The translations under genes and the position numbers were made by a program. DNA of 64,000 nt from Loxodes magnus (Eukaryota; Ciliophora; Karyorelictea; Loxodida; Loxodidae): NCBI GenBank assembly GCA_946699065.1, contig CAMPDV010000134.1, positions 124,001-188,000 of the forward strand. Reading direction: 5' to 3'. A model generated the notes under the pieces. It made no database searches. It was not told the DNA's origin and saw only the letters and a program-made list of their open reading frames with translations. Each line of letters begins with the position of its first letter. The stretch's first letter is position 1. Positions 4,041 through 61,138 of this stretch are shown here, one piece after another.

Positions 4041-4277
4041 TTCAAAGCTCAATTGTTTTAATTGCTTTCATTATAAATTATATATAAGAATCAACTTTTT
4101 CTTTAAATTTTATATATTTGGTTCTATATAAATAAGAATAGTGATTAATTAATATCTTCTTTATCTATATGGAAATAAGCAATCTTTTTAAACTTATAAA
4201 TCAAACTCTTCCTGAATAAAAACTTATGATCAGAATGATGCTCAACTGAAATAAACCTAAAGATTTTAAATAAATAA

Positions 4278-4770
4278 TAAATAAATTTGATTATAGAGCG
4301 CGTAGCACTCTCGTTGGTGCGCAGCTCTTTAAAAAAATGTTTCATATTGACAAGAATGTTTGTTACTGATAAAATTATCAGATACTGATAAACCTTGTTC
4401 AACTGGTATAATTATTCAGTACTGATAAAAATGTTCAATACTGATATAATTTAAGAATACTCGTAATCTTATCTACTTGTTGGAGGTCCAAGGACATGGC
4501 AGGATTGTGTCTCATTGCATCACCAAAGCAGAGGACGACATGTGTCAATTATGGGTACTTAAATTCCCCACCTCTGATGAAGCTCGCAATTTTATTCTTT
4601 TTAGTTCCAGCATTAAATTAAATTTAAATTGAGCCAGTGCCGAAGGTATAAGAATCTTATGTCTCGAGGCCAAGCCAAAGTAGAGGAAGACATAAAGTCG
4701 ATTATGGGTACTTAACTTCCCCAACCTCTAATGAAGATGACCTTGTTGCTCACCTTCGAACAATGAGCAA
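4278..4770 (-). repeat. SINE-like repeat, family S2, copy a
   Basis: On the minus strand the element ends with a 33-nt imperfect hairpin (4296-4328, GAGC..GCAC..GTGC..GCTC) followed by a TTTA-rich tail at 4270-4292. The body is GC-richer than its surroundings. It matches copy d (62856-63204) over most of its length, but contains a diverged internal duplication: the block with GGGTACTTAA and CCCC at 4480-4590 recurs at 4650-4770. A promoter box could not be assigned with confidence. Confidence 0.7.
4343..4452. repeat. degenerate short tandem repeat inside S2
   Basis: Several copies of a unit close to ATACTGATAAA, spaced about 20-25 bp, lie between the hairpin and the GC-rich body. The same array is present in copy d near 62935-63040, so it belongs to this subtype of the element rather than to the locus. 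Confidence 0.6.
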
Positions 4771-6083: not shown

Positions 6084-6190
6084 TTATTTACACAAAAGTA
6101 TTTAAGGTTATACTACAGTATCTGATACTTTGAAAAGAGGGAAATCAAAAAAGTTATAATTATTTATCTGAAATTTATTTTATTATTTCA

Positions 6191-6238
6191 GAAACTAAAA
6201 GAGTTTCTACTACTGAGCCAACTCCATCTACAAAAGAG
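6191..6238 (-). repeat. fragment with LINE/S1-type 3-prime tail
   Basis: The minus strand reads TGGCTCAGTAGT, close to a Pol III A box, then AAACTCTTTTAGTTT, the terminal tail found on the LINE and on S1 repeats. It is probably the end of a small truncated SINE lying just upstream of the LINE insertion. Confidence 0.4.
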
Positions 6239-6275
6239 TGATATTTTAAAGCTCTTATAGAAAAAAAAAAAAAAA

Positions 6276-9200
6276 ATGGACGAAATATAGAATTCACTAG
6301 TTTTTAATAGTGACTCTTCTTTAATTAATTTCAAAGAAGCTGCAAATTCATAGGAAAAGCATAGGCAGGTGCATTAAAATCTCCAAACGAAAGATTTGGA
6401 GTAACTACAAATTAAATAAGTAAACCTAATAATGAATTTATTAAGACAACTACTTAAAAATTGTAGTCAAAAACCGGAAAACAAATTCATACGCGTCCCA
6501 TTAAAACTACTTAGGAACTCTCTTCAACGTGGATATTAATTGTAGCGTATTATGAAAGTGAAATCAACCTATAAATAGATGAACAGATTAACCGCCTAAA
6601 ATAATACCGCGAAAGATACGAAACGATTACCTAAGAAATCTTTCCAAAAATAAGATATTATCTTAGATAGTTAGAATTCAAAAGATATACCTTCAAATCC
6701 TAATTAAAATTCAAATAAAGATATCCTTTTATGGTAGTCAAAAATAACATAAACTTAAGATTCATTTTTGAATAATACTAATTAACAATTCTATTAAATT
6801 TCAAATAACGAAATTAATCAGAAATAAAATAATACTACTAATCCTGATAATTCAAATAATCATTATTTACCTGATCTTCAGAGCAAACAAGCTTAAAATT
6901 AAACTGCTGATTTAAGAAATGTAATATAAAATTAAATAATTAATTAGTCTAATGAGAATTTATTTACCTTAGAAATAAAAGAACTTAAACATAATATATA
7001 AAGACTTATAGATAAGAACCAATAATTAAATGAAATGTTAATTAATATAAAAGCAAAATATGAACGAGATATTGAAACATTGATAAGTAACTAAGAAATA
7101 TCCAAAATATATTATAAAACTTATATAAATAAAATTTATTAGAAATATAAGCAATTATAGAACAATTTTTAGTCAATCAAATCTGATATATAGCAATATC
7201 ACAAAAAAATGCTATCAAAATAACTAGTTCATAAAATTACTTAAACAAACTTCTCCACTTATTACAGTAACTAAATAGTTTAAACAGATGAAATAATTAG
7301 TATATTTCAAGAAATTTAGATATAATAGAAAAACTATGAGAATTAAGTCAATTCAAAATATGAAATATAATCTAATTAAGAGATTCAAATTGAAGCCAAT
7401 GCTAATTAAAGCTTTACTTAAGCTTAAATGATAGGAGCAAATAATTCACTATGCCAAAACTTTAATAAAATTAAAAATTTTACTTAAATTGAAATAGATA
7501 ACTTTCTAAATAAAACTTAGCAAGGATATCAATAGACTATATTAGAATAGAACTAATATTTACTTCAACAAATTACCTAATAAAAAATAATAAACGAAAT
7601 TTAGCTCCAAGAGTTATATTCTTAATATTAAAAATTATAAAACTAAAATAAGTAATTTATAGATTAAGAATAGAAAGCTTAAATGGAAATTTTAACTTTT
7701 AAAATCGAATTAGATAAGTAAAGATAATAAAAATATGAAATAAATATAGCTTTTCAAAATTAAATTCTATTAAAAAATAAGGAAATTCAAATGTATAAAG
7801 AATTATTTTAGAATTAAATCTAACATACAAAAGAATTCAGTAATTAATAGTAATTTTAGAAGAAGTAATTTGTAGATGCATAAACTTAGACATTATATGG
7901 AAATATTTAAAAAAAGGATAGTATTATCTAAACAGATAATATAAATAAATAATAAACAGCTTTTTTGTGTCAAAAATTTACTCAAACAAATATAATCAAG
8001 CAAGACAAGTTAATGTAAACTTAAAATAATTAATAGGAAGCATAAACTAATACTATTATAACATAACATAATAACTAATACTGTCAAATAAAATTGCCAG
8101 ATGAAGATTTTGTTTTACTATAGCATTAATATCACTAACTCAACTTAAAATTCATTTAAAGTACCAAAAATATATAGACACTTGAGATAAAAATAGAAGA
8201 GTTTTAAAAACTTAATTAAAATTTGAAAAAAGATATATTTAATTATTCTACTAAAAGATGAAAAAAAGATTAATAAAACTAAACAGATTCGATCGATGCT
8301 ATTTATCAGAATTAAGCCTTATCTTCCAATATTAATCTTAATATTCTTAAAAGGAAACATGAAGAAGAAGATAAAACAATTCCGCCAGCAAAACGTATGA
8401 GTAAACATAATAATAAAAAAGAGTGCGATTAAATAATATGTTATTTCAATCTGACTAGTCTATAACTTTAAAAGTTTATTAAATCCGAAACTTGAAGACG
8501 TCCATAGTACGAAATGCACAATATATAAGGTAGATATGTCACAGTTACTTAAGATTTAGAATAAGGTACATGTGATAGTGTGAAAAGTAAAATTGATATA
8601 GATAGAAAGCTACTTAAAAAATATACGACGTAAGTAATATATATTTTGATACAATATTTTCATTAACATCCTGAGTATGGAAAAAGATTAGTACATATTT
8701 AGATTAACCAATAAGGATAGAAAAGCATTTGCATTTACGAAAGTGGTCTATCTGCAGGCTCGGAAAAAATTAGAAAGGACTAATAAATTTAAAAAATAAA
8801 GATGGGACATATAAATATTAATGGAATAGCGAGCAAGTGCTTGAATATTGAAGAATTTATCAGAGATAACAGTATAGATATTTTATCAATAAACGAAACC
8901 TGATAAAAAGATGACTTTCCTCCAATATTGATAAATGGATTTAAAACATATTTTAAGAACTCAGGAAAAGGAGGAGGTGTATGCTTAATTGTAGGAGAAG
9001 AATTTAATAGTACAGAAATACATATATAAGTTGAAAAAGAAATAAATAGATTCATAACAATTAAACTGGATAATATTTTAATCACGTCTTGTTACATGCC
9101 TGATAATGGAAAAAGTTAAGATGTTAAAGATTTAGCTTATGAACAACTAAATACATTGCTGAATTTATATAATGATAATCCACATATACTAATGGGAGAT

Positions 9201-12185
9201 TTCAATGCTCTTTTATAAGGCTTCGGTGATAATCCTGAAAATGCTTATGATAATAACATTAGACTATAAGAATTCTTACTATAAAACGATCTTGAGATAG
9301 TGAATGATAGCAACATTAATACATGTATTCACAAAGGAACAGGAAAAACGTATTGTAATGATTATATCATTATAAACAACCATTTGAACGTTAATTAGTT
9401 TGCAAATTTCACTGCTCATAATAATAGTTTATATTCTGATCATATTCCAATCACTGTCGACTTTATCAATAATTCTATAGTATATTGGGAAAAGATAACT
9501 CAGAGAAAATATAAAATAAATAGGTTATAAGATGCAATAGATAGATAAAAATATTAAGAATCTTTCCTACAAACTTATCTAGAATTCTTTTAAATAGATT
9601 AAGATAATCTTGAAGATTAATATGAATGCATCAAAAGTAATATTTAAGACAATGCTGATCAAACATTAGGTTCGTTTATTCCAGATTCAAATTATAACAA
9701 ACTTCCTCGAGCTCTCACAAAGAAATATATAGAGGCAAAAAGAACTAACTCAGAATATAAGGAAGCTCACGTAAGATTTGGAAGAATAAACTAGCAAGTA
9801 ACTAATCTTCATGAGGAAGCAAAACGACTTTGGAAAGACTTCAAGTATAATCTATGAAAATTTAAAAAAAACAAAGCAAAAAAGAAATTTCTTCTTCTTA
9901 ATGGAGATTCTAGGGAAATTTTTTCACAGGCTAAGAAAATTTTAAATCCTTTGAAGAGAAATACTATGAACTTTAATTAAGAAATCAAAAATAAATTCAT
10001 TGAATCATGGGAAAATTGTGTTTTTAACAAGCATTATAATCTAACTCAAGAATAGATAAATCTTAGTAATTAAAAAATAGATAAAATATACGATAATATT
10101 TAAGAAATTAAAGATTATCCACTCTCGTATTTGTAAGGATTTGATCTTTTTACCATAAAAGAAATCTAAGAAATTATAAAAGAAATTCCGAATGGAAAAG
10201 CAGCTGGTCCAGATGGAATAAAAGGCGAACTTCTGAAATATGGTGGATAATATTTATTAATAATTCTTCATTCTTTTCTGAATAATATGCTAAGACTTGG
10301 AAGAATCCCTTAGGAATTAAATATATCGGTGATAATTCCAATATTTAAAAAAGGAAATAAAGATGATTGGAAAAACTGACGACCTATTTCTCTTATTAAT
10401 ACTATTCTAAAACTATATGATAAAGCTTTAACAAAAAGACTATACAATCTGATTTATTAGAGAAATTTGATTCACCCTTCATAAATGGGATTTATGAAAA
10501 ACAGATAAACAACTTAATAAATTTGAATAATATAACAAATAATTGATAACTATCGGAAATGTGCTAAAGGTAAGACTAAATTGATAGCAACACTGATAGA
10601 CGTTGAAAAAATGTTTGACTCAATAGAAAGAAGACTCTTGTTTGATTAACTTAAGAGAGTTAAACTACCACTTGGAATAATAATAGCATTAGAATCGTTT
10701 TATAAAAACCTAAACTCTTGATTTATCATAGAGGGAAAGAACTCCAGAACATTATAATACAATAAAGGAGTTATGTAAGGAAGTTCTCATGGACCAGTTT
10801 TAGCATTATTGTATTATGATATAGTAATTAGTTATTTGGAAAGTAAAAGTGCCTAATTTAAATGACAGAGCTTGCGTGTTAGCTTCGCTTGTAGAGGATG
10901 GGCAGATGATCTTATTCTTCTTTCCAAATCTGCAAAGTAGATGTAGAATTTAATAAATGAAGCAAATAAAGTTTTTGCATGAACACATTTAAAGATTAAT
11001 GTTACCAAATCCGAATGCATCTAATTTCTAAAGAAGAATCAGAAATAATAAATTTTAAATTTATGATTAGGAAATTAGCCAATTGCTTAAAAAGAACAAG
11101 TAACATATTTAGGAGTTATTCTACATTAGAAGAAGAACTTAAATCCCCATTGCAAAGAAACTGCATTCAAGTATATAGCTGCAATGAAGAAAGCTGTTTT
11201 TTAACTGATGAGATATAAGAATGTAACTCCTTGACATTTTAAAACTTTATGTAGACTTTTTACATTACCTAAAGCAGAATATGGAGGAGACTTAGTACCA
11301 TGAAGTATTCAAAAAGGAGTAACTGGAGTTCTGAACAGAATAGAATCAAGCATGAGATTAATTTCAAGAAAAGCTTTTTAAGTAGCAACTTCAACATTTA
11401 ATGAATCATGTTATATAGACCTGAATTGATTACCCTTTAAGCACATTATGGCTATAAAATTCTTCAGATTCTACCATAAAATTAAATAAGAAAGTACTGA
11501 TTTTCCAAGATCAACAATAGGCTCTCTTTTCATTAATATATGGAAAAAAGGATTTCAATACTACGATTAAGTGTAGCAATTATCAGACCTTTATAATATC
11601 GATCTGCAGAATTAATAGAATAATACCAATCTTAAAACTTTTACTAAACATGTAAGAGAAAAAATACAACAATATTTCTACAAAGTAGCTACTAAAAAAT
11701 TTATGAGGATGAAAACAGCTAGAGTATATACTGAATAATTTGGTAATCTTTAACAATTTCCACAAATTACTTATACTAAATTAAACAAATAGTATAGACG
11801 AGAAATTATCAGTATATATAAACTTAGAACCTAAACTTATAATTTCCGTAAGGATCTTTAAGATCGTCATTACCCCATTGATAATCCCTATTGTATGTGT
11901 GGAGAGTATGAAACTTTCGAGCATATCTTTAAATGTGTGTACTATTCTAATATAATGAATTGATTATCGGAAAATATCGGAAATTATGACTTAAGGCGCC
12001 TTATACTATACTATCAAGAATATCTAAACTCATTTTCAAGGTCTAAATTGGAGTATTTAGACTTATAGATCAAAATATTTCATAAGAAGCTAATGACAAG
12101 GAGACTTGAGATTCTAGAAATGGAGAAAGCAAAAAAGGAAGAAGCTAAAGATGAATAGAAAGAAGAACTAATTAAAGAAAAATGA
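6276..12185 (+). CDS. LINE polyprotein: coiled coil, AP endonuclease, reverse transcriptase, zinc knuckle (1969 aa)
   Basis: One frame, with TAA/TAG=Gln and TGA=Trp, ends at tandem TGA TGA (12183-12188). Residues ~110-720 are Q/N/K-rich and coiled-coil-like (LKHNIQRLIDKNQQLNEM). A basic PPAKRMSK patch and an unrecognised ~130-residue segment follow. The apurinic endonuclease spans ~843-1070, with NETW at 873, MGDFNA at 973 and SDHIPI at 1054. The reverse transcriptase has KAAGPDGIKGE, NWRPISLI, FDSIE at 1447, GVMQGSSHGP and a catalytic WADD at 1542 (YADD or FADD is usual). A Cys/His knuckle (CMC..H..C) lies at 1873-1887. Trp in NETW and NWRP is TGA, which supports the code. No frameshift was found, so the copy could be active. 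Confidence 0.88.
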
Positions 12186-12229
12186 TGAGATGTAAACAAG
12201 ATTAAAAAACTATTTAAAAACATTTACTA

Positions 12230-12290
12230 ACGTCTATAATTGAAAGAAGCAATTCTTGCAATTAAAGACGTCAAAAAACTCTTTTAGTTT
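12230..12290 (+). other. LINE 3-prime hairpin and terminal tail
   Basis: ACGTCTATAATTG (12230-12242) pairs with CAATTAAAGACGT (12259-12271) with one mismatch. It is followed by CAAAAAACTCTTTTAGTTT to 12290. In LINE families with a stringent 3-prime end, such a structure is what the reverse transcriptase recognises on its template RNA. That role is inferred here. Confidence 0.7.
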
Positions 12291-12372
12291 AAATTTAATT
12301 TAATTTAATTAATTAATTAATTAAATTTAACTATAAAGATTAGTTTCATATTTAATTAGAGAAAATGTTTCT

Positions 12373-14302: not shown

Positions 14303-15646
14303 TCAAAGTAATTCTTCATCTTCACTTTCTTCATCTTCAGATTCTTTATCTTATTCTCTATTTATTTCTTGATATTATTAATATTCAGATATTAGATCTT
14401 TCATATTCTATTCTGCTTCTGTAAATTCCATTTCATCCATACCCTAATCAATGTATTAGTGTAAAAATGTACTTCTTATAAATTTTAGCGATAACTATTC
14501 ACCTATTCGTGAAAACACTTCTTATATTGAAGTATTATTTCCAATTAAAACCATTGAAGTTCTAACTCCGAAATATGGAATATCGCAAAAAGATCATTTA
14601 AAGTTGTTAGGTATTCATTCTACAAAATAGTGGTTATATTTATTCTATGCATTAAGCATCTACTCATCTATTTCACTTCTTAAAACTCTTCCTCTAAGAA
14701 TTCCTGTTGCTGATAAATACAGACCATGTTTTTGATCAGAAGCACACATTGTATTTTAACCACTGAATATTTAATAAACTAATTCTGGAACTGTAAGAGC
14801 TCTATATTAACTACTTCCACGTGATTTTAAAGGAGCATAGCTGATAGTCAAAAAATTAAGTTTTGGAAAAGGAACTAAATTATAGGTAAGTTTTCTTAAA
14901 TCACTATTTATCTAGCCTGAAAATCTTAAACTAGCAGTTGCTCCACTCATTCCCATTGATATTTAAAGATTTAGATCCCTATATGTTGGAATAGGAAGTT
15001 TAAGAGTTCTAAAGCATGTTTCATATAAAGCTTCGTTATCTAATACCATCACTGCATCTGAATATTCCATTAATTAATTTATACCTAAAATAGCATTGTA
15101 AGGTTCTAATACTTAATCAGATACCTTTGTAGAAGGAAAAACTGAGAAAGTTTAAATTAATTTATCTGGAAATTCTTCTTTTAATTTAGAAAGTAAAAGA
15201 CTTCCCATTCCTGATCCTGTTCCTCCTCCTAAAGAATGAAACATTTGAAATCCTTATAAGCTATCACAACCTTCAGCTTCTTTTCTTACAACATCTAATA
15301 CTTGATTTATTAAATCAGCTCCTTCAGTATAATACCCTTTTGCTCAATTATTACCTGTACCTGTTTATCCATAAATAAAGTTTTCAGGTTTAAATAATTA
15401 TCCAAAGGAACTAGCTCTAACATAATCCATCGTACCAATTTCCAAATCAATAAGAATAGCTCTAGGAATAAATTTTCATCCTATATTTTCATTATAATAA
15501 ACATTAATTTTATCGAGTTATAAATCAGAATTTCCATTATAGTTACCAATAGGATCAATTCCATGTTCATCTGAAATTATTTCTCAGAATCTAGTTGCAA
15601 TTTAATTTCCACATTAGCCTACTTAAATTAGTATAATTTCTCTCAT
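14303..15646 (-). CDS. beta-tubulin, divergent paralogue (447 aa)
   Basis: Beta-tubulin forms the alpha/beta heterodimer of microtubules. Translation starts at ATG 15644-15646 with MREI, the beta autoregulation motif, and continues [27 protein letters not shown], the GTP-binding loop [43 protein letters not shown] and [11 protein letters not shown]. It ends with an acidic E/D tail and TGA at 14303-14305. TGA also encodes Trp at RFWE, NNWAKG, VEWIP and FKWS, and TAA/TAG encode the Gln of QVGQCGNQ. No intron is needed. Several usually invariant sites differ (LHQYIDQ for [15 protein letters not shown] for CAADPRHG), so it may be a fast-evolving or specialised copy, but every structural block is present. 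Confidence 0.93.
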
Positions 15647-21734: not shown

Positions 21735-22094
21735 AAAATTGCAATACCGCCTAAAATAGTACCGCCAAAGATACTTAATGAGTATCCAAAGATATTTAAA
21801 AAATAAAGATATAATCTAAGATAGTGAGAATATTAAAGATATGCACTAAAATCTGAACTAAAATAAAGATATCTTTATATGATAATCAAAAAGCACATAA
21901 ACTTTAGATTTATTTTGAATAGTACCAATCAGTAATTAGACTAAAATTTATTAAATTATTTAAAAGTAAACCAATATTATTAATTCTCATATTTCACACC
22001 ATCACTATTTATCTTATCTCTAGAATAAAAACACACTACTTTAAAATTTTACTCCTTACTTTATAAGAACAAGTAATCAAAAATAAATCTAATT
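21735..22094 (+). mobile_element. old LINE fragment, left half
   Basis: Colinear with positions ~6590-6900 of LINE copy 1, the N-terminal coiled-coil region: shared landmarks include ACCGCCTAAAATA, AAAGATATAA and AAAGATATC. Many substitutions and indels make it much older than copies 1 and 2. It continues at 28181 after the insertion of copy 2. Confidence 0.75.
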
Positions 22095-22107
22095 AAAATC
22101 TGTTTAT
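22095..22107. repeat. 13-bp target-site duplication, left
   Basis: AAAATCTGTTTAT here is repeated exactly at 28168-28180, bracketing LINE copy 2. Confidence 0.8.
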
Positions 22108-25100
22108 AAATAAATTTAAACTAAAAGAGTTTTTTGACGTCTTTAATTGCAAGAATTGCTTCTTTCAATTATAGACGTTAGTAAATGTTTTTAAATAGTT
22201 TTTTAATCTTGTTTACATTTCATCTTTTTTCTTTAATTAGTTCTTCTTTCTATTCATCTTTAGCTTCTTCCTTTTTTGCTTTCTCCATTTTAGAATCTCA
22301 AGTCTCCTTGTCATTAGCTTCTTATGAAATATTTTGATCTATAAGTCTAAATACTCCAATTTAGACCTTGAAAATGAGTTTAGATATTCTTGATCGTATA
22401 GTATAAGGTGCCTTAAGTCATAATTTCCGATCTTTTCCGATAATCAATTCATTATATTAGAATAGTACACACATTTAAAGATATGCTCGAAAATTTCATA
22501 TTCTCCACACATATATTAGGGATTATCAATGGGGTAATGACGATCTTAAAGATCCTTACGGAAATTATAAGTTTAGGTTCTAAGTTTATATATAATGATA
22601 ATTTCTCGTCTATACTATTTGTTTAATTTAGTATAAGTAATTTGTGGAAATTGTTAAAGATTACCAAATTATTCAGTATATACTTTAGCTGTTTTCATTC
22701 TCATAAATTTTTTAGTAGCTACTTTGTAGAAATATTGTTGTATTTTTTCTCTTACATGTTTAGTAAAATTTTTAAGATTGGTATTATTCTATTAATTCTC
22801 CAGATCGATATTATAAAGGTCTGATAATTGCTACACTTAATCGTAGTATTGAAATCCTTTTTTCCATATATTAAAGAAAAGAGAGCCTATTGTTGATCTT
22901 GGAAAATCAATACTTTCTTATTTAATTTTATGGTAGAATCTGAAGAATTTTATAGCCATAATGTGCTTAAAGGGTAATCAATTCAGGTCTATATAACATG
23001 ATTCATTAAATGTTGAAGTTGCTACTTAAAAAGCTTTTCTTGAAATTAATCTCATGCTTGATTCTATTCTGTTCAGAACTCCAGTTACTCCTTTTTGAAT
23101 ACTTCATGGTACTAAGTCTCCTCCATATTCTGCTTTAGGTAATGTAAAAAGTCTACATAAAGTTTTAAAATGTCAAGGAGTTACATTCTTATATCTCATC
23201 AGTTAAAAAACAGCTTTTTTCATTGCAGCTATATATTTGAATACAACTTCTTTGCAATGGGGATTCAAGTTCTTCTTCTGATGTAGAATAACTCCTAAAT
23301 ATGTTACTTGTTCTTTTTATGCAATTGGTTAATTTCCTAATCATAAATTTAAAATTTATTATTTTAATTCTTCTTTAGAAATTAGATGCATTCAAATTTG
23401 GTAACATTTATCTTTAAATGTGTTCATGCAAAAACTTTATTTGCTTCATTTATTAAATTCTACATCTAATTTGCAGATTTGGAAAGAAGAATAAGATCAT
23501 CTGCCCATCCTCTACAAGCGAAGCTAATACTTGAATCCTGGCATTTAAATCCCAATTAGTTACTTTTACTTTCCAGATATCTAATTACTATGTCATAATA
23601 CAATAATGCTAAAACTGGTCCATGAGAACTTCCTTACATGACTCCATTGTTGAATTATAAAGTTCAGGTGCTCTTTCCATCTATGATAAATGAAGAGTTT
23701 AGGTTTTTGTAAAGCGATTCTAAGGCTATTATTATTCCAAGTGGTAATTTAACTTTCTTAAGTTAATCAAACAAGAGTCTTCTTTCTATTGATTCAAACA
23801 TTTTTTCAACGTCTATCAGTGTTGCTATCAATTTAGTTTTATTTTTAGCACATTTCCGATAGTTATCAATTATTTGTTATATTATTCAAATTTATTAAGT
23901 TGTTTATCTGTTTTTCATAAATCCCATTTATGAAGAGTGAATCAAATTTCTCTAATAAATCAGATTGTATAGTCTTTTTGTTAAAGCTTTATCATATAGT
24001 TTTAGAATAGTATTAATAAGAGAAATAGATAGTCAGTTTTTCCAATCATCTTTATTTCCTTTTTTAAATATTGGAATTATCACCGATATATTTAATTCCT
24101 AAGGGATTCTTCCAAGTCTTAGCATATTATTCAGAAAAGAATGAAGAATTATTAATAAATATTATCCACCATATTTCAGAAGTTCGCCTTTTATTCCATC
24201 TGGACCAGCTGCTTTTCCATTCGGAATTTCTTTTATAATTTCTTTTATAATTTCTTTTATAATTTCTTATATTTCTTTTATGGTAAAAAGATCAAATCCT
24301 TACAAATACGAGAGTGGATAATCTTTAATTTCTTAAATATTATCGTATATTTTATCTATTTTTTAATTACTAAGATTTATCTATTCTTGAGTTAGATTAG
24401 AATGCTTGTTAAAAACACAATTTTCCCATGATTCAATGAATTTATTTTTGATTTCTTAATTAAAGTTCATAGTATTTCTCTTCAAAGGATTTAGAATTTT
24501 ATTAGCTTGTGAAAAAATTTCCTTAGAATCTCCATTAAGAAGTAGAAATTTCTTTTTTGCTTTGTTCTTTTTAAATTTTCGTAGATTATACTTGAAGTCT
24601 TTCCAAAGTCGTTTTGCTTCCTCATGAAGATTAGTTACTTGCTAGTTTATTCTTCCAAATTTTACGTGAGCTTCCTTATATTCTGAGTTAGCTCTTTTTG
24701 CCTCTAAATATTTCTTTGTAAGAGCTCGAGGAAGTTTGCTATAATTTGAGTCTGGAATAAACGAACCTAATGTTTGATCAGCATTGTCTTAAATATTACT
24801 TTTGATGCATTCATATTAATCTTCAAGATTATCTTAATCTATTTAAAAGAATTCTAGAAAAGTTTGTAGGAAAGATTCTTAATATTTTTGCCTATCTATT
24901 GCATCTTATAACCTATTTATTTTATAGTTTCTCTGAGTTATCTTTTCCCAATATACTATAGAATTATTGATAAAGTCGACAGTGATTGGAATATGATCAG
25001 AAAATAAACTATTATTATGAGCAGTGAAATTTGCAAACTAATTAACGTTCAAATGGTTGTTTATAATGATATAATCATTACAATACGTTTTTCCTGTTCC

Positions 25101-28100
25101 TTTGTGAATACATGTATTAATGTTGCTATCATTCACTATCTCAAGATCGTTTTATAGTAAGAATTCTTATAGTCTAATGTTATTATCATAAGCATTTTCA
25201 GGATTATCACCGAAGCCTTATAAAAGAGCATTGAAATCTCCCATTAGTATATGTGGATTATCATTATATAAATTCAGCAATGTATTTAGTTGTTCATAAG
25301 CTAAATCTTTAACATCTTAACTTTTTCCATTATCAGGCATGTAACAAGACGTGATTAAAATATTATCCAGTTTAATTGTTATGAATCTATTTATTTCTTT
25401 TTCAACTTATATATGTATTTCTGTACTATTAAATTCTTCTCCTACAATTAAGCATACACCTCCTCCTTTTCCTGAGTTCTTAAAATATGTTTTAAATCCA
25501 TTTATCAATATTGGAGGAAAGTCATCTTTTTATCAGGTTCCGTTTATTGATAAAATATCTATACTGTTATCTCTGATAAATTCTTCAATATTCAAGCACT
25601 TGCTCGCTATTCCATTAATATTTATATGTCCCATCTTTAATTTTTTAAATTTATTAGTCCTTTCTAATTTTTTCCGATCCTGCAGGTAGACCACTTTCGT
25701 AAATGCAAATGCTTTTCTATCCTTATTGGTTAATCTAAATATGAACTAATCTTTTTCCATACTCAGGATGTTAATGAAAATATTGTATCAAAATATATAT
25801 TACTTACGTCGTATATTTTTTAAGTAGCTTTCTATCTATATCAATTTTACTTTTCACACTATCACATGTACCTTATTCTAAATCTTAAGTAACTGTGACA
25901 TATCTACCTTATATATTGTACATTTCGTACTATGGACGTCTTCAAGTTTCGGATTTAATAAACTTTTAAAGTTATAGACTAGTCAGATTGAAATAACATA
26001 TTATTTAATCGCACTCTTTTTTATTATTATGTTTACTCATACGTTTTGCTGGCGGAATTGTTTTATCTTCTTCTTCATGTTTCCTTTTAAGAATATTAAG
26101 ATTAATATTGGAAGATAAGGTTTAATTCTGATAAATAGCATCGATCGAATCTGTTTAGTTTTATTAATCTTTTTTCATCTTTTAGTAGAATAATTAAATA
26201 TATCTGTTTTCAAATTTTAATTAAGTTTTTAAAACTCTTATATTTTTATCTCAAGTGTCTACATATTTTGGGTACTTTAAATGAATTTTAAGTTGAGTTA
26301 GTGATATTAATGCTATAGTAAAACAAAATCTTCATCTGGCAATTTTATTTGACAGTATTAGTTATTATGTTATGTTATAATAGTATTAGTTTATGCTTCC
26401 TATTAATTATTTTAAGTTTACATTAACTTGTCTTGCTTGATTATATTTGTTTGAGTAAATTTTTGACACAAAAAAGCTGTTTATTATTTATTTATATTAT
26501 CTGTTTAGATAATACTATCTTTTGCTTAAATATTTCCATATAATGTCTAAGTTTATGCATCTACAAAATACTTCTTCTAAAATTACTATTAATTACTAAA
26601 TTCTTTTGTATGCTAGATTTAATTCTAAAATAATTATTTATACATTTGGATTTCCTTATTTTTTAATAGAATTTAATTTTGAAAAGCAATATTTATTTCA
26701 TAGTTTTATTATCTTTACTTATCTAATTCGATTTTAAAAGTTAAATTTTCCATTTAAGCTTTCTATTCTTAATCTATAAATTACTTATTTTAGTTTTATA
26801 ATTTTTAATATTAAGAATATAACTCTTGGAGTTAAATTTCGTTTATTATTTTTTATTAGGTAATTTGTTGAAGTAAATATTAGTTCTATTCTAATATAGT
26901 CTATTGATATCCTTGCTAAGTTTTATTTAGAAAGTTATCTATTTCAATTTAAGTAAAATTTCTAATTTTATTAAAGTTTTGGCATAGTGAATTATTTATT
27001 CCTATCATTTAAGCTTAAGTAAAGCTTTAATTAACATTGGCTTCAATTTGAATCTCTTTATTATATTATATTTCATCTATTGAATTGACTTAATTCTCAT
27101 AGTTTTTCTATTATATCTAAATTTCTTGAACTATACTAATTATTTCATCTGTTTAAACTATTTAGTTACTGTAATAAGTAGAGAAGTTTGTTTAAGTAAT
27201 TTTAAGAACTAGTTATTTTGATAGCATTTTTTTGTGATATTGCTATATATCAGATTTGATTGATTAAAAATTGTTCTATAATTGTTTATATTTCTAATAA
27301 ATTTTATTTATATAAGTTTTTTAATATATTTTGGATATTTCTTAGTTACTTATCAATGTTTCAATATCTCGTTCATATTTTACTTTTATATTAATTAGCA
27401 TTTCATTTAATTATTGGTTCTTATCTATAAGTCTTTATATATTATGTTTAAGTTCTTTTATTTCTAAGGTAAATAAGTTTTCATTAGACTAATTAATTAT
27501 TTTATTTTATATTACATTTCTTAAATCAGCAGTTTAATTTTAAGGTTGTTTGCTCTGAAGATCAGGTAAATAATGATTATTTGAATTATCAGGATTAGTA
27601 ATATTATTTTATTTCTGGCTAATTTAGTTATTTGAAATTTAATAGAATTGTTAATTAGTATTATTCAAAAATGAATCTTAGGTTTATGTTATTTTTGACT
27701 ACCATAAAAGGATATCTTTATTTGGATTTTAATTAGGATTTGAAGGTATATCTTTAGAATTCTAACTATCTAAGATAATATCTTATTTTTGGAAAAATTT
27801 CTTAGGTAATCGTTTCGTATCTTTCGCGGTATTATTTTAGGCGGTTAATCTGTTCATCTATTTATAGGTTGATTTCACTTTCATAATACGCTACAATTAA
27901 TATCCACGTTGAAGAGAGTTCCTAAGTAGTTTTAATGGGACGCGTATGAATTTGGTTTCCGGTTTTTGACTACAATTTTTAAGTAGTTGTCTTAATAAAT
28001 TCATTATTATGTTTACTTATTTAATTTGTAGTTACTCCAAATCTTTCGTTTGGAGATTTTAATGCACCTGCCTATGCTTTTCCTATGAATTTGCAGCTTC

Positions 28101-28167
28101 TTTGAAATTAATTAAAGAAGAGTCACTATTAAAAACTAGTGAATTCTATATTTCGTCCATTTTTTAA
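22108..28167 (-). mobile_element. LINE retrotransposon, copy 2, inverted and decayed
   Basis: Full-length relative of copy 1 on the opposite strand. The 3-prime tail AAACTAAAAGAG begins near 22119 after a short AT tail, and the 5-prime ATG lies at 28158-28160, only about 7 bp from the duplicated target. It is flanked by the 13-bp duplication and inserted into an older, oppositely oriented LINE. Confidence 0.9.
22220..28160 (-). pseudogene. LINE polyprotein remnant with four frameshifts
   Basis: Line-by-line comparison with copy 1 shows a lost A in an A run near 26168, a gained T near 25645, a lost base near 23365 and a lost base near 22288. A 12-bp unit (TTTTATAATTTC) present once in copy 1 is triplicated near 24230-24270. 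The endonuclease NET motif reads N-G-T here (GAA to GGA), which should remove the metal-binding Glu. The first Cys of the C-terminal knuckle is Tyr, and NWRPI becomes NWLSI. WADD remains. The copy is dead by several independent lesions. Confidence 0.9.
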
Positions 28168-28180
28168 AAAATCTGTTTAT
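28168..28180. repeat. 13-bp target-site duplication, right
   Basis: Exact repeat of 22095-22107. Confidence 0.8.
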
Positions 28181-28828
28181 TTAAGAAATAAAATAACTTA
28201 AAAATGCTATATAAAGACTAATTGATTGGAACTAGCTTTTAAACGAAATTTTAATCCATGCAAAAGTAAAATATTATCTAGATATATAAACCTTGATAAG
28301 TAACTAAGAAATAACCGAAATATATTATAAAAATTACATAAACAAAATTTATTAGAAATGCAAAAGAATATAAAATTGAAGCTAGCGAATAAAATATGAT
28401 ATATAATAATATAAGAAAAAGTTACACTAAAAATAAATAGATATTAAAGCAGATAAAAAATAACTTTTTTATATATCTACTTAAATCAATTTTTCCTGTA
28501 ATTCCAAAACTAAATAATTTAAACTGATTAAATTTTTATTCTAGATAGAGAAATTAAGACACAATGATGCACTGATAAAAATTAAATTAATTATAAGAGT
28601 AAATCTTAATCTAGTGGAGAGATCAAAGTTGAATCCAATGCTAATTAAACTGATTTAAACTTAAATGACAGGTGTAAAAATCTCATAAAGAGATAATTTG
28701 AAAATAATAAAAAATTTTAATTAAATTGAAACAGGTAACTTACTAAATAAAACTTAGTTGATTAATAATAGATTATACTAGAATGGACTTGATATTTACT
28801 TCAACTAATTTCCTAGTAAAGATGATAC
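28181..28828 (+). mobile_element. old LINE fragment, right half
   Basis: Colinear with ~6985-7600 of LINE copy 1 (AACTTAAA, TATATAAAGAC, CTTGATAAGTAACTAAGAAA, TTTATTAGAAAT). It resumes where the left half stops, which shows both were one element before copy 2 landed. It ends at the junction with the ORF1-like element. Confidence 0.75.
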
Positions 28829-28831
28829 CAT

Positions 28832-29554
28832 CCTTTAATATTCTGAATAGTTTTCATCTTGCATGTTGCGTTCCTAATTATTTCTCCAAGGATTAAGATT
28901 TGAATTAAAGAATTTTTTTCTATAAATTTTTCCGCTTTATGTTGGATATATCCTAAATAGTTTTCTAAAAATATCTTATTTATTCTTTCTTTAAATTTCG
29001 CTTAGTTAGTAGCAGTATTTTCATTGGCGTTATTTATTGCACACGTAGCATTTTATTCTTCTTTTAAACTATTATTCTTGTAACACTTATTTAATTTAAA
29101 TTTACTACTTATTTTAAATAAACGTTTACTGTTTATTTTAATTTGAGGCTTCATTTTCTATTTCCATAGGATCTGATTAATTCTGTTAAAACGAAAATGG
29201 CGTTACCTGAATTTATTATTAAATTTAAAGAATTCTTTGTTCCAGTTTGTCTTCTATTTCTTATTATTATTAAAATTGTTTCTAAAGTAAAGACGTTATT
29301 AGTTTTTCTAATTTTTCTACTTTATCAGTGAGGTATCTATTTTTAAACATAAACTCTTTTAATGACTTAGATAATATTTCTATTTGAGTTTATGTCGGAA
29401 GTTTTTTTAGTTCTGTATTTCCAAGTGGTTAATGTTCGTCATATCAATCATATTTCTCACTTTCACTCATTGTAATTATTTCGCTTTTTTATTTTTTAGA
29501 TTATTTTCCTGTTTAACTGTTTTATTCAAAGTTCTGTTATTTCTTAGAAGCCAT
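28832..29554 (-). CDS. ORF1/Gag-like element protein with CCHC-type knuckle, truncated (copy A)
   Basis: Continuous 241-codon frame from ATG 29552-29554 (MASKKQQNFEQNSQTGKQ) to the junction at 28832, with no terminal stop. Order: basic Gln/Lys-rich N-terminus; MSESEKYDWYDEHQPLG; a helical segment (IQIEIL-like, then FMFKNRYLTDKVEKLEKLIT); a Gln-rich coil (QQQQEIEDKLEQRI); SDPMEIENEASNQ; a knuckle CYVCNKQRQWKYC in which Arg replaces the expected His; and QDIFRKLFRIYPTQSGKIYR followed by KKFFNSN. A second copy (56389-57206) keeps the His. The architecture suggests a nucleic-acid-binding protein of a retroelement. No reverse transcriptase is linked here, so element class is open. It is divergent with the gene at 29858. 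Confidence 0.6.
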
Positions 29555-29857
29555 TTTATATTTAATATAATAAAACCTTTAAATAACATTATTTAGAAAA
29601 AAACTAAAAATTCTACTTACTGTATAAATAAAAAATAATTTTCCAGTTATCAATCTCAGCTAAATGTAAAACTATTAAATCTAGCCAACATAAGAATTGC
29701 AAAATTTAAATGTTTAAAGCTTTAATTTAAAAAATAAGTGATAGAAATATAAAGACAACCTAAGTTAGAGTAAATTTTAAATTTAGCTAGAAGATTTAAA
29801 ATAATGAAGCTTTGATATTAATAGTATAATAGCTAAATAAATAAGATTATTTTTAGA

Positions 29858-31156: not shown

Positions 31157-33202
31157 TTAGAATTCATTTAAATTTCAGAAAACAACTTTACGCTCAGAGT
31201 TTTATACAATAGTAAATTTTTTGAACTGAGTTTTTTTTATATATAAGATTATTATAAACCAATAAAAATAATTTAAATTTTATATATTTTCCAATTTATA
31301 AAAATTTGATATAAACAAATCAATTAATTTGGATTCATTTTTATTAAGTTCATCACAATTAATAAAAGAAGTCAAATAACTATTATTTAGAAAAATTTAA
31401 CAAATAATTGGTCATTTGACACAAATAGTGGAATGTTCTCTAACTCTTTCTAACTCCAGTTTATGGAAGAATTACAAGAATTTGAAGAATGAAGGCAATC
31501 ATCTTTGATTATAAAAACGGAGAGAAGAAGTTAAGAATCAAAGAGACTAGATTAAGCTAGAAACATTTCTTGTCTATTTTTAATAATTAAATTTGGCTTC
31601 TTCAATTTTTCGTGGTGAACCAAACAATGGTGGTACCACACTAATTTAATTAATTTATTAATTAATTTATTTAAAAATTAGTTTTTATTATTCTTTTTAT
31701 ACTCACTTTTTCTATAAAAAGCTATTATTATAAAATATATATTTTTAGACTTTTCATTAAAGAAATATTTTTCTCTATATCTAATTTTAGTAATTTTAAA
31801 TAAATAATCTTTCTAAGCTAATTAAGAAAATATAGTTTTGACTTATTTAAGATTAATCCCATTGTTTTATACTTTTTATATGTTTTAAACTTATTTCTTA
31901 ATGTAAATGAATCATAATTATTAAATAACTTTATTCTATTTCTTTTTCTTAAATATAATCTAGAAAGGTAGATTCTACTTGAAGGTTAATATATTTCTAA
32001 GATTTTTATTAATATTATTTTGCTTAAGTGAAAAAATAAAAAACTATTTGTTGAATCATTCTTAAGCTTTAGGTTCTAGTATACTTATAGAAAGAACAAA
32101 TTCCTTACTAATAGATTAAATAAATCTAAATTAAATTTAAATTTATGGTATTTTATTATTAAATATGATTCTCAAGTCTAGGAATGTTTAGAAAAGACTT
32201 AAATAAATAAAGATAATAAGCCTTAATATAAATTTGTAATAATGCAAAGCAATTTATATAAGTTATTTATTTTAGTCAACAAGATAGAAAAAAACCAAAA
32301 AGTTAGTAATACAGATATTATAGAGTTATATTAGTTAACCTTAATTTATATAAGAGAATCAGTTTATGGTATATTATCTAGATGTTTTACCAAACATTTA
32401 AATCTGATGGAAGCAACAATTTAGAAAATAAATTTAATTCTCAAATTTCTAATTAGTTGCTAGCACTATAATCTCTATTTTAAAATATAATCTAAAACCT
32501 AATGTTCATATTATTTTTCAATTTATTCTATCAAATGATTATAGTTAAAAAACTATTAAAATAAATAATTTTTCAAAAAGATGAAAGAATAGTTAAATAT
32601 ATTATAAAATGAATATAATTTTAAATGTGCATAAATTAATTAAAACCTAATGATAAAAAAAATATTCTAAAAATTGCTTAATCATTTTTAGTTAATTGAG
32701 AAAATAAAATAAATAAAATTTATGCATTTTCAATTTAAAAGATAATATTTGTATTTATAAGATAATAGATTACTTATCAAATAACTATTTTAATTTATTT
32801 TAATGCTTAAAGTTTATAAAGCTGCAAATATTAAAATTAAAAAGATAAAAGCTAAATTATGCATAACCATTTTTTTAAATTATTAAGTATTAAAACTTAA
32901 AGAAATAAACTTATTTTGTGGGCTGGAAATTATGTTTATTTCTTTTGATGAAATTGGTATTTTCATTATTTACTATCTCTTTATCAAAGTAAAAAGAACT
33001 AAATATTTACTTTTAATTAATATGTATAAATATAGAAAATATAATTAAATGACTGCTAAATTAAAAAAATAATTTGATATTTAGTTTTATTTTTAATATT
33101 TTTATTTATTTAAATAAGTCATAATAGAAACTATAAATATACAATATAAAGCTTTTATAAATATATTTATAATTATTCTTATTCTATTTTTTTTAATTAA
33201 TT
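31157..33202. other. gene-free AT-rich stretch
   Basis: Only a mildly GC-richer patch at 31430-31650 stands out (GAAGAATGAAGGCAATC, GGTGAACC, GGTGGTACCAC). It could be an old element remnant. No frame or fold could be supported. Confidence 0.4.
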
Positions 33203-33502
33203 TTAAACTAAAAGAGTTTTTGGACTGCAACTTCTTGCAGTTTAACGACCCCAGCACTCCCTTCATGGGATAACGGGGATATCCTGTTGCTTTCGAAAAG
33301 CAGCTGCCAGGGAGCTCCATCGCTATGGGCAGCCAGGCTTCAAGCCCCTACCAGGAGTGGATAATCAAGAGGAAGGTGTTCCCTTGCTAAGGTTGACTTT
33401 GACCAGGGACTTTCTCAGCGACAGGAAAGGAACTTGTTCCTAGCCTTAAAACCAGAAAGTATGACTCAGAAGGTCAATCTCAGCTCCCACCATCTTTTTA
33501 AT
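33203..33502 (-). repeat. SINE-like repeat, family S1, copy a
   Basis: A ~300-bp GC-rich element. On the minus strand it begins GATGGTGGGAGCTGAG and carries TCGCTGAGA (A-box-like) and GGCTTGAAGCC (close to the B-box consensus) about 60 bp apart. It ends with an ACTGCAA/TTGCAGT hairpin and AAAAACTCTTTTAGTTTA, the same tail as the LINE. Five copies or fragments occur in the window in both orientations. Confidence 0.85.
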
Positions 33503-33943
33503 TATTATTCTCATTCTATTATTGTTTTATTCTACTCTTTATAAACTCCTATCTTTTTTTATTTGACTTAAATTAAAAATAAGAAATATTTTAGAAATGT
33601 AATAAACAAATTGGAGAATAAATTTCCCTTTTATTTTTATAAAATTAAATGATGGAAAGTATCTAAAAACCTCTTCTAAATGATATAAATTTTTGTAAAT
33701 TTTTGTTTTATAAAATTTATCTGACTATAGCAAATAATTTAAGGATTGATACTAATATTATTTATATTAAGTAGCATTTAAGTATAAATAATTCTTAATT
33801 GCTAATATTTTTCTAGTTTATAATTAAAAAGATTAAGAGCATATTATATTAATAAACTTATAAGTTAAATACAACTTTTATATTGTTTTTAAACAGAATT
33901 TATTATAACTATTTACAAAAAAATTAAATTAAATTACTAAAAA

Positions 33944-34105: not shown

Positions 34106-34839
34106 CATATTTGCATCTCTGTAAACATTAGCTTTAAAATTCTTAGTGTTTATTTAGTTCCTTTTAATAAGATATTTAGTTTTAGAGATTCCTACAATGT
34201 ATATATGATGTTATTCTACCTTAATAGAAATATTTTTTATTTTATTTTATATTTATACTAGAATATTTAACTTTTTATTGATATTTTCTAAACTTTATTA
34301 TTTTTTTAATGATTAATAGTTTTTATTAATTAAATATTAGCTTATTATTTATAAAGTTTAAAAGCATTTGACTTAATTGATTTATAATATTATTATTTTC
34401 CATAACTATTTAAGTAATCTCTCCTAATTATCAATTTAAAATCATTATATTTTATATTTCAACCTAAATAATTAAGTTCTTAGAATTTATTTTATGTTGT
34501 AAATTTATTTTTTTAAGTTTTTTATTACTTTTATAAGCTAAAATCTCTTAGTAGCTTCATTTAAACTTCAAACTATAAGGGCTACTAGAAAATTAAGACT
34601 TTACTATACAATATAAACTGAAAAATGATTTCTTTGTACGAATTTTTAGATTTAGAGATTTCTTTTAAGTTAATCTTAGCTCGATTCTTTAATTTCTTCG
34701 TAGTAAATATTATTACTTTCCATAATTAAGATTTTAGGATTTAAACTATATAAAAATTAAAATAAAATTGATTGAGATAATTATTAAGAAACTAAAACAA
34801 TAAAGGAAAATATAATAAAGAAAGAAAATTATATAATAA
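34106..34839. other. gene-free AT-rich stretch
   Basis: Nothing supportable between the tubulin fragment and the S2 repeats. Confidence 0.4.
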
Positions 34840-35215
34840 ATAAATAAATTCTATTATAGAGCGCGTAGCACTCTCGTTGGTGCGCAGCTCTTTAAATTAA
34901 TTTTATTTAATGTCCAAAAATAAAATTTTATTGGTCTCTCTATCTTGTTTTCTCTTCCTGCGGTACGTCCCTGTAATTTTTCCTTCCAAAGCATAGGATG
35001 CAATTACTGGTATATTTCTCCTACCTATGATGAAGAAAGTTTCCTCCTGGCATTCAGAGTAATCCAGCTTGTCGCATCTTCCTTCTCTTGTTATTGGTTT
35101 CTCTTCTGTCGATTTATCCTCCGTCCGCGCTCATTTTTTAGTTTCCCTGCTGGGCCTCCAAGCAGCATCCGAAGGAGAGGGCTTTCCACTCTATTTAAAT
35201 TAAATTATAATAAAT
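34840..35215 (-). repeat. SINE-like repeat, family S2, copy b
   Basis: It shares the 3-prime hairpin (34858-34892) and TTTA-rich tail of copy a but has a different GC-rich body. On the minus strand the body has protein-like stretches such as DATSWITLNARRKLSSSQVG and MLWKEKLQGRTAGRENKIER, so it may be a captured coding fragment rather than an RNA-derived head. It ends directly against copy c. Confidence 0.7.
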
Positions 35216-35540
35216 AAATAAATAAATTTGATTATAGAGCGTGCAGCACTTTCGATAATGAGCAGCTCTTTAAATTAATTTTATTTATTATTAATAAAAA
35301 TTTATTATTGGAAATTTCCTCTAGTGCTTCACTTCCTCAGAAATTCTATCTTCTAATAGAGAATTGTCGGAGTGATGACCTAAGAGATCTAATTTTCTGG
35401 CATCTTTCAACAACCGTAAACCAATGCCTCCAGTTCTTTCCTGCTTTGCTCCTGCCAAGATTTTTGCTCAGTTCGTCGCTCCTGAAGTACTTCGAGTTTA
35501 AGTTAGTCTCAGTTGGAGGATTGGTTCTCCCTATTTAAAA
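35216..35540 (-). repeat. SINE-like repeat, family S2, copy c
   Basis: In tandem with copy b, with a diverged hairpin at 35237-35270 and again a distinct body. The minus strand reads KLEVLQERRTEQKSWQEQSR followed by KELEALVYG, a coiled-coil-like fragment. Hairpin and tail are the only parts shared with copies a, b and d. Confidence 0.65.
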
Positions 35541-40641: not shown

Positions 40642-40972
40642 GTAATATATTTTTAAAATAGTTATAGATATTTTAAGTTGATTTATAACTTTAGCTTAAA
40701 ATAGTAAATTTATATATAAAAATAAATTGCGTTAATTTAAGAATCATGTTAGTATGTTAAAATACCTAGAATCATATTTATTTAATCTAATAAAAGATTT
40801 TTATAGAAGTAAACAAAACATTTTTTAAGTCCTTGATGATTATATTAGAGAAATCCTAAAAAGTAGTAACTAGAAAAAAATAAAAGGAAAATTATAGAAA
40901 TATAATAAATTTTTAAATTTTGGTATTATTTTAATAAATAATACCAAACAATTAGAGAATAAGATATAATTA

Positions 40973-41270
40973 AAAAGATGGTGGGAGCTGAGATTGACCT
41001 TCTGAATCATACTTTCTGGTTTTATGGCTAGGAACAAGTTCCTTTCCTGTCGCTGAGAAAGTCCCTGGTCAAAGTCAACCTTTGCAAGGGAACGCCTTCC
41101 TCTTGATTATCCACTCCTGGTAGGGGCTTGAAGCCTGGCTGCCCATAGCGATGGAGCTCCCTGGCAGCTGCTTTTCGAAAGCAACAGGATATCCCCGTTA
41201 TCCCATGAAGGGAGTGTTGGGGTCGTTAAACTGCAAGAAGTTGCAGTCCAAAAACTCTTTTAGTTTAAAA
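40973..41270 (+). repeat. SINE-like repeat, family S1, copy b
   Basis: Nearly identical to copy a in the opposite orientation, so it is a recent copy. A-box-like TCGCTGAGA, B-box-like GGCTTGAAGCC, an ACTGCAA/TTGCAGT hairpin and the LINE-type tail at 41248-41267 are all intact, followed by an AAAATT-type tail. Confidence 0.88.
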
Positions 41271-42311
41271 TTAAAATTAAAATTAGAGAATAAGATATCT
41301 ATTATTTCTCTAATAATTTGCGTCTTTCCTTATAAATTTCAAATTCTCATTTTATTTAAAAGTTGCTTTATTATTACTATTAGACATCAACTCTATTTCC
41401 TCGCAGTTATTTAAATAAAAATAATTTTAAAAGAGATAACGAAATCTTTAAAACCTTTTTCTGAATGAAGCTATTAATTCTCCTTTAAGTATAATCTTCA
41501 TATTTAGATATCTTTTATTTATTCCCCACGTTATTGAGTTAAAATAGCAAGATTAAGTATTTTAGATTTTAAAATGATTCTCTTTATAATTATTGAGTTT
41601 TTATATAAAATATCAGACTTAAGAACAAATTTTTTCTATATTTGTCTAGAGCAAATCATTTAATCTAAAAAATTATTATTAGTTTACATTTTTACTCTCA
41701 AAGTAACCAGAAATTTTTATGAAATGAGCATAATAACGGCGATTATATCTTATTGAAAAACTGAATGATTATCATGCATTTACTTATAGAATAGGATTTT
41801 ATTTGATAACTTTAACATATTTGATACTTTATTAATAAAAACATGATAGTTGATAAACATATTCTTATTCCTTTATTATCTCAATTTTCATATTTTTTAA
41901 GCATCATTCATATATAAACTAAATTAAAGTTTTAAAGTGTAAAATTAATTTACTATTTTGGTTTTTGTTGAATTTTACCTTTGACTTTAAACTATTAAAT
42001 TTATCTTAACTACTTCAACCATTTGCTTAAAGTTTAATAGTTTATTTATTCAAATTTTCTAAATACATTTGCATACTATATTCTTGTAAAACTTTGCCTT
42101 TTAATTAGGCTTTTTGGTGTATTTGAGTTCTTTTTTCGAATAATTTACTTTTATAGTTAGAACAATTAAAAGTTCTTTTTTATAAATATCTAGTCTTTAT
42201 GAAAAAATTTAAATATTAGCTTAAATTTTGTAAATTTATTATCTTTTAGCTTCTTTATTTCAATAATTCCTTTACTTGTAAGCAATAAATAAATTAAGTT
42301 TTGTTCTTTAT
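41271..42311. other. gene-free AT-rich stretch
   Basis: Nothing supportable was seen between the S1 repeat and the tubulin pseudogene. Confidence 0.4.
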
Positions 42312-60480: not shown

Positions 60481-60789
60481 AACTTTATTTTTAACACTGG
60501 AGCAATCGGGTATCCAGCATGAAGAGGTGAAAATCCTCGAAAATTTCTAAACTTAATTTATCCTATTATATATAAATGTAGAATTTTATAAGAATATATA
60601 TTATTTATTAAATAGCTAATTTATGATTATGCATATAAATATTTAATTATATATAATTAAAAAGGATAAATACTATAAAATTTAAATGTCCTTTTTATAA
60701 ATAAAGAAATAAGATAATTTTATCCTTCATTATTTATATTACTTATATAATTTTTTATAGTTAAATCAAATTTTATTTAATTAATTAAT

Positions 60790-61092: not shown

Positions 61093-61138
61093 ATAAATAA
61101 AATTTTATTATATCATTTATTTCAATAATTATAAAGAT

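Follow-up and report, generated by a model that had tools for sequence, protein, structure and literature searches.

The DNA analyzed here, hereafter the window, is a stretch of 64,000 nucleotides from the karyorelict ciliate Loxodes magnus (NCBI GenBank assembly GCA_946699065.1, contig CAMPDV010000134.1, positions 124,001 to 188,000 of the forward strand). At window positions 6276 to 12185, on the plus strand, lies a long interspersed nuclear element (LINE; a retrotransposon without long terminal repeats) of the kind that encodes an apurinic/apyrimidinic endonuclease (APE). This element, referred to as copy A, has its open reading frame (ORF) laid out as follows:

6261 to 6275, plus strand: run of 15 A just before the start codon, an A-rich leader in place of a 5′ untranslated region (UTR)
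6276 to 12185, plus strand: single open frame of 1969 codons (6276 to 12182), then TGA; a second TGA follows at 12186 to 12188
6276 to 8258, plus strand: ORF1-like region, residues 1 to 661, rich in Q, N, and K and mostly helical
8259 to 8261, plus strand: TGA-662, the first in-frame TGA, after 661 codons without one
8259 to 8795, plus strand: linker, residues 662 to 840, between the ORF1-like region and the APE
8814 to 9443, plus strand: APE domain, residues 847 to 1056 (Pfam PF03372 Exo_endo_phos, E 1.5e-8)
10356 to 11123, plus strand: reverse transcriptase (RT) domain, residues 1361 to 1616 (Pfam PF00078 RVT_1, E 1.6e-29)
11892 to 11936, plus strand: CCHC-like zinc knuckle, residues 1873 to 1887, recognized by eye in the translation and not scored by Pfam

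Pfam places the APE upstream of the RT in one frame. The translation shows the strings HININGI, INETW, YMP, GDFN, and SDH, followed by LIDVEKMFD, MQGSSHGP, and WADD, which we take to be the catalytic motifs of APE and RT, and the C terminus carries CMCGEYETFEHIFKC, presumably the CCHC zinc knuckle. The best-scoring solved structures for the RT are R2 proteins (E 1.5e-22; PDB 9nl3, 9dou, and 8gh6). The motif at 10899 to 10910 reads WADD where YADD or FADD is the usual form, and its W is encoded by TGG in 22 of 22 aligned copies. Pfam gave no match above chance for residues 1 to 661 and none for the linker. The ORF1-like region is made up of 18% Q, 12% N, and 10% K. Its single-sequence AlphaFold2 model, used for helices alone, is mostly helical, with a 140-residue helix at 404 to 543 (predicted confidence, pLDDT, about 70; whole-model mean, 46); the linker model (mean pLDDT, 37) was not used. 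The preliminary description of this locus had placed a Q/N/K-rich coiled coil in one 1969-codon frame with APE, RT, and zinc knuckle. The single frame is borne out by the domain search that it had proposed and by the TGA counts, codon statistics, and substitution ratios given below, with the knuckle seen by eye; for the coiled coil, the composition stands and the fold itself is plausible from the model.

The meaning of an open frame depends on the genetic code of the host, for which one neighboring gene served as a check:

14330 to 15646, minus strand: host beta-tubulin gene, aligned without gaps to a PDB tubulin over 439 residues

According to the report on its code, L. magnus uses translation table 27: a UGA distant from the poly(A) tail means W, and one close to it means stop (PMC11441545). 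In the beta-tubulin gene, three of the four tryptophans of the PDB chain (21, 101, and 344) face TGA, and the gene terminates in TGA, as in the ambiguous karyorelict code (NCBI table 27: TAA and TAG, Q; TGA, W when internal and stop when terminal). The LINE therefore uses the code of its host, so that the recoding proposed in the preliminary description is the ordinary, ambiguous code of this organism. Were TGA a stop, the frame of copy A would be interrupted first at codon 662 and then 13 more times. Since every frame is open under the host code, the openness of this one is no evidence in itself.

Evidence for the frame came instead from its composition and from other copies in the genome (705,730,643 bases in 7843 contigs). 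TGA codons number 14 in the frame of copy A but 37 and 57 in the alternative frames; across codons 1 to 661, there are 0 in frame and 8 and 17 off frame. Codon statistics trained on codons 841 to 1969 favored the same frame across codons 1 to 661 taken as a whole and across codons 662 to 840. Comparison with two fragments in the window and five fetched loci, all old relatives that are about 67 to 82% identical in nucleotides over long alignments, gave pooled ratios of nonsynonymous to synonymous change (pN/pS) of 0.51 for ORF1, 0.33 for the linker, 0.39 for the APE, and 0.30 for the RT. These comparisons have copy A in common, so they are not independent of one another. Off frame, the ratios were 0.78 to 1.13, with 0.78 and 0.80 for the ORF1-like region and 0.87 and 1.13 for the linker. 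Between copy A and these relatives, TGA and TGG exchange at five W sites, and 14 of the 18 readable W codons in the relatives are TGA or TGG. Moreover, 20 closely similar copies, described below, differ by 32 synonymous and 43 nonsynonymous substitutions, a synonymous share higher than expected (0.267, assuming a transition weight of 3; p 0.004). At the level of sequence, these patterns show protein-level selection on the copy A frame from ORF1 through RT.

The junction between the ORF1-like region and the linker is where a conventional LINE would be divided. In a 22-row family alignment, all 20 rows with a whole codon 662 have TGA there and none has TGG. In the old relatives L040 and L042 the junction reads GCTGATAAAAGG, with the TGA retained and no overlapping ATG, and L040 aligns across it without gaps over 185 columns; an ATG overlapping TGA-662 is likewise missing from L043, and relatives L039 and L041 do not reach this site. 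Codons 662 to 744 have a ratio of 0.34 in frame, against 0.76 and 1.16 off frame. Their sole ATG, at codon 708, reads ATA, ATA, and TCA in three relatives; of the ATGs that follow, ATG-747 reads ATG, ATG, and ATT, and ATG-843 is retained in all three. Constraint in this frame without a conserved ATG implies, on this comparative evidence, that translation must pass UGA-662 at least some of the time. A genome pattern allowing for variable length at this site gave 283 matches, of which 100 were listed; among those listed, 93 have the in-frame length. The fetched copies agree, with copy A's length in 18 of the 19 (out of 20) that are readable there. A frame break, named in the preliminary description as a finding that would speak against it, is thus not the family norm.

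The age and integrity of the family were judged from its closest members. The best 40 matches to the RT half of copy A were copy A itself and 39 copies at 99%. Twenty of the 39 were fetched, a choice by similarity to copy A that favors young copies and so tells against the reading that follows. Fifteen are full length and five are 5′ truncated; each copy's median divergence from the rest is 0.15 to 0.28%, about 0.2%, and among the 15 full-length copies L009 alone has an indel relative to the majority, leaving 14 without one. Exact 5′ ends of the family number 305 in the genome, a count that may include alleles and tandem duplications. On these data, the family is a young one that has recently multiplied, and its activity, which the preliminary description had raised as a possibility, may be inferred from that youth. 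Copies of equal age throughout, which would have spoken against activity, were not what was found, given 20 copies about 0.2% apart and relatives at roughly 67 to 82% identity. Other members and parts of the family in the window are the following:

10676 to 11075, plus strand: RT patch in which copy A diverges from the family; 24 of its 34 differences lie here, together with its 6-nt deletion
22084 to 28165, minus strand: sister copy B, full length, 97% identical, with a target-site duplication (TSD) of 13 bp
21746 to 22096, plus strand: left part of an old decayed relative that hosts the copy B insertion, 71% identical to copy A 6591 to 6943
28176 to 28820, plus strand: right part of the same relative, 72% identical to copy A 6959 to 7584

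The divergent patch of about 400 nt suggests gene conversion or template switching, and copy A is, by this comparison, a mosaic and atypical member of its family. Its motifs and frame are present as first described; the idea of an undamaged ORF has to be qualified, since copy A departs from the family majority by 34 substitutions and an in-frame deletion of 6 nt. The statement that the sister copy is riddled with indels proved too strong: relative to the family majority, the ORF of copy B has five, four of them frameshifting.

Two old relatives have inverted internal segments (L040, corresponding to copy A 8330 to 8772, and L042, to 6431 to 7073), as from twin priming or later inversion. Two further contigs (C5131 and C20) have RT domains 2532 bp apart, and two others (C162 and C54) have LINE ends about 17.5 kb apart, pointing to tandem arrays with LINE pieces.

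At the 5′ end, the 17 full-length copies examined, namely A, B, and 15 fetched ones, all have ATGGACGA directly preceded by A's, from 3 to at least 60 in number. Of the fetched full-length copies, 14 have a TSD, and in these, A-rich fillers of 2 to 31 nt separate it from the ATG. Judged by these copies, the family is one without a 5′ UTR apart from the A-rich leader. TSDs of 11 to 22 bp were found in 18 of the 20 fetched copies, as the longest words common to both flanks and with no chance control, and the fetched copies have a common 3′ end.

We consider it probable that copy A represents a young LINE family in which ORF1, linker, APE, and RT are fused in a single frame that is read through UGA-662 and gives a single ORF1-ORF2 protein. 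Transcription would start in the A-rich leader right before the ATG, from a promoter internal to the element. The ribosome would insert Q at UAA and UAG and W at the internal UGAs and would stop at UGA UGA, close to the end of the transcript, so that the product would be one ORF1-ORF2 protein. The APE would then nick AT-rich DNA, and the RT would begin at the 3′ hairpin and tail, the target-primed reverse transcription that the structure of the insertions points to. The same machinery would also copy SINE-1, a short interspersed nuclear element (SINE) bearing the same 3′ end. Given how young the family is, it should be possible to find its transcripts, its peptides, and insertions that still segregate, and the host has published RNA-seq and genome data.

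Several observations weigh against this reading. In the beta-tubulin gene, the fourth W of the PDB chain (397) faces a TAA/TAG codon, and TGAs stand at 57 and 351, where that chain has no W. The codon statistics do not support the frame in the first 100 codons. Four of the 18 readable W codons in the relatives are not W (AGT, TAG, TAG, and TGT). Near the junction, L042 has gaps of 1 nt and 2 nt, and in L043 a gap falls inside codon 662, which leaves L040 as the one relative with a gap-free frame. L009 has two extra A's at the junction, and 7 of the 100 genome matches listed (283 in all), copy B included, have a shorter length that breaks the frame. Copy A has no TSD that could be found, and L009 and L013 have no clear one.

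The alternative that survives best accepts the single frame and proposes two products from it: UGA-662 would mostly terminate, releasing free ORF1, and a fraction read as W would give less of a fusion protein, comparable to Gag and Gag-Pol in other retroelements. The codon is suitably placed for this, being the first TGA after 661 codons and lying between the ORF1-like region and the linker, and its constancy in the family rows and in L040 and L042 stands out beside the five other W codons, which exchange TGA and TGG. However, the ORF1-like region has one W among its 661 residues anyway, so the absence of TGA from it says little, and TGA-740 is as constant as TGA-662 in three relatives. Moreover, an internal UGA that lies at a distance from the poly(A) tail is described as W in Loxodes (PMC11441545). 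We regard a leaky stop as rather unlikely.

The second alternative is an ordinary LINE with two ORFs, in which ORF1 ends at UGA-662, ORF2 restarts at an overlapping ATG (ATGA) or at a later one, and the frame of copy A results from an extra A in a homopolymer. The ATGA overlap is known from two-ORF elements. Copy B, with one A fewer right after TGA-662, has its linker in frame with just such an ATG, a length shared by the 7 short matches, and the later ATG-843, just before the APE, is the one retained in all three relatives. As the family norm, this layout, strongly suggested by copy B and the most serious challenge to the single frame, is ruled out by the genome copies and the old relatives: the fused length prevails in the listed matches and the fetched copies, no ATG overlaps the TGA in L040, L042, or L043, and codons 662 to 744 are constrained in the ORF1 frame with no conserved ATG. 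Separate ORF1 and ORF2 cistrons, as in a canonical two-ORF LINE, were thus not found, and we judge this explanation quite improbable. That the frame is open by chance and copy A an old, functionless relic is scarcely credible: the code assigns a residue to each of the three former stop codons, which leaves any frame open, and copy A has its 34 differences and deletion, yet the depletion of TGA, the codon statistics, the pN/pS ratios, and the 14 indel-free copies among 15 of full length all contradict it.

The 3′ end connects the fused-frame LINE with a young SINE family that we call SINE-1:

12230 to 12271, plus strand: hairpin of the 3′ UTR, from RNA folding of the 3′ end (−19.0 kcal/mol for 115 nt, no shuffled control)
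12270 to 12297, plus strand: 3′ terminal sequence common to SINE-1, 26 of 28 bases identical, with AATTT-like repeats next
40966 to 41300, plus strand: SINE-1 copy with a TSD of 18 bp
33177 to 33527, minus strand: SINE-1 copy, 95% identical to that at 40966 to 41300
60770 to 61135, minus strand: older SINE-1 copy, about 80% identical

In the LINE, the hairpin is followed by GTCAAAAAACTCTTTTAGTTTAAATTTA and then by AATTT-like repeats, which run into the beginning of the TSD and share bases with it. A genome search with a SINE-1 query of 335 bp gave at least 40 copies at 97 to 100% identity, the 40 matches scored among 1659 first-look candidates. Words of at least 12 bp shared by both flanks, taken as TSDs, were found in 6 of 9 copies read (11 given). 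Rfam at gathering level identified two tRNAs in the window and no match to SINE-1. The family of copy A and SINE-1 thus have a common 3′ end and similar TSDs, the features of a LINE/SINE pair, from which we infer that SINE-1 may be moved by the LINE machinery. Such a pair and a nearly pure-A leader are features that may bear on transcription start and on the choice of RNA.

A second SINE-like family (D4/D6) is present in the window at 4266 to 4582, 34829 to 34919, 35207 to 35297, and 62851 to 63171. Its 3′ hairpin, AGAGCTGCGCACC...GGTGCTACGCGCTCTATAATCAAATTTATTT, matches the 3′ end of a second LINE family (copies c97 and c519), which gives a second LINE/SINE pair.

LINEs have been described in Loxodes, with RVT_1 and an endonuclease domain, lengths of 5 to 6 kbp, and, per family, about 10% of some 3,000 copies full length, at less than 10% divergence; their proteins find their best matches in Blepharisma proteins (PMC11441545). 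That report names Exo_endo_phos_2 for the endonuclease, whereas the Pfam match of copy A is Exo_endo_phos, and the available main text on these LINEs describes no ORF1, fused frame, A-rich leader, TSDs, or SINE partner (PMC11441545). The family of copy A may already be among these published LINEs or in the repeat library of that paper.

Among other known systems, the single-ORF LINEs of L2 subgroup 4 and CR1 subgroup 6 resemble copy A in having a domain upstream of the endonuclease in the same ORF; that domain is a PHD domain and the codes are ordinary, whereas copy A has a long Q/N-rich helical region and internal UGA (PMC4120745). R2 elements share with copy A the single ORF and, among solved structures, the closest RT core. 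They differ in having a restriction-enzyme-like nuclease, whereas copy A has an APE domain and dispersed insertion sites, which places it outside the R2 group (PMC2881922). LINEs of the L1 type have in common with the family of copy A the APE, RT, TSDs, 5′ truncation, and a coiled-coil-like ORF1, but they have two ORFs and a poly(A) tail, in contrast to the one frame and AATTT-like tail of copy A (PMC2881922). The ORF1 domain that marks the L1 clade (Transposase_22) had no Pfam match in copy A at E up to 1. Within ciliates, the LINE/RTE-X elements of Blepharisma carry, like copy A, an APE upstream of the RT; unlike in copy A, a fusion with ORF1 is not mentioned in the passages covered (PMC9942856). 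In the open-licence literature, no description of ORF fusion in ciliate LINEs was found among titles and the beginnings of abstracts. The parts of this LINE are of known kinds; what is new is their arrangement, the selection through UGA, the A-rich leader, and the LINE/SINE pair.

The arrangement may have a cause in the code itself. If UGA is the sole stop and means W wherever the poly(A) tail is not near, an mRNA with two ORFs cannot end ORF1, and a single frame follows. We tentatively entertain, as possible although not favored, that the ambiguous stop code drives LINE lineages of this host to one ORF1-ORF2 frame with almost no 5′ UTR. This would be a concrete link from a genetic code to the layout of a genome parasite, in that a two-cistron mRNA is ruled out if internal UGA cannot stop translation.

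Other LINE families of the host bear on this idea. A genome search for RVT_1, in which 150 of 3403 candidates were scored, returned ten loci, all of one other family (the second one mentioned above) and 96 to 100% identical to one another. Its protein is about 23 to 25% identical to that of copy A over long stretches and has, unlike copy A, a CCHC-like motif in the upstream region, seen by eye. In c519, a single frame has the best scores between about 2775 and 7250, a stretch that spans the APE border and has low scores in places, and the frame switches in the first 600 bases; in c97, the frame switches at one-base indels. The codon model for this family is a weak one, trained partly on c97 with its frameshifts, and the single frame in one of the two copies inspected weakly supports a role of the code. 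In a third family (L046 and L047) the frames switch.

The sequence shared within two other LINE families (the region 2172 to 2186 of L044; L046 and L047 near 1895) starts near a short A-run and ATGG (ATTG in c519). A missing 5′ UTR may be common among the LINE families of this genome.

An inverted repeat of 777 bp, 95% identical, occupies window positions 28827 to 29603 and 56340 to 57113. It starts near ATGGCTTC on the coding strand and reads as a Q/K-rich peptide; its start recurs in the 3′ flank of c97, and it is perhaps an element made of ORF1 only. Protein search and a DNA pattern search of viral contigs gave nothing. In the window, 6103 to 6261, adjoining the 5′ end of copy A, is a fragment about 71% similar to a tubulin copy near 43.2 kb. 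A second tubulin copy at 42321 to 43621 shares 73% identity with the first gene, shifts between reading frames, and looks like a decaying paralogue. Finally, 48664 to 53496 is a long coding-like region with matches to Beta_helix (E 4.8e-37) and to the Chlamydia PMP repeat (E 5.3e-7).

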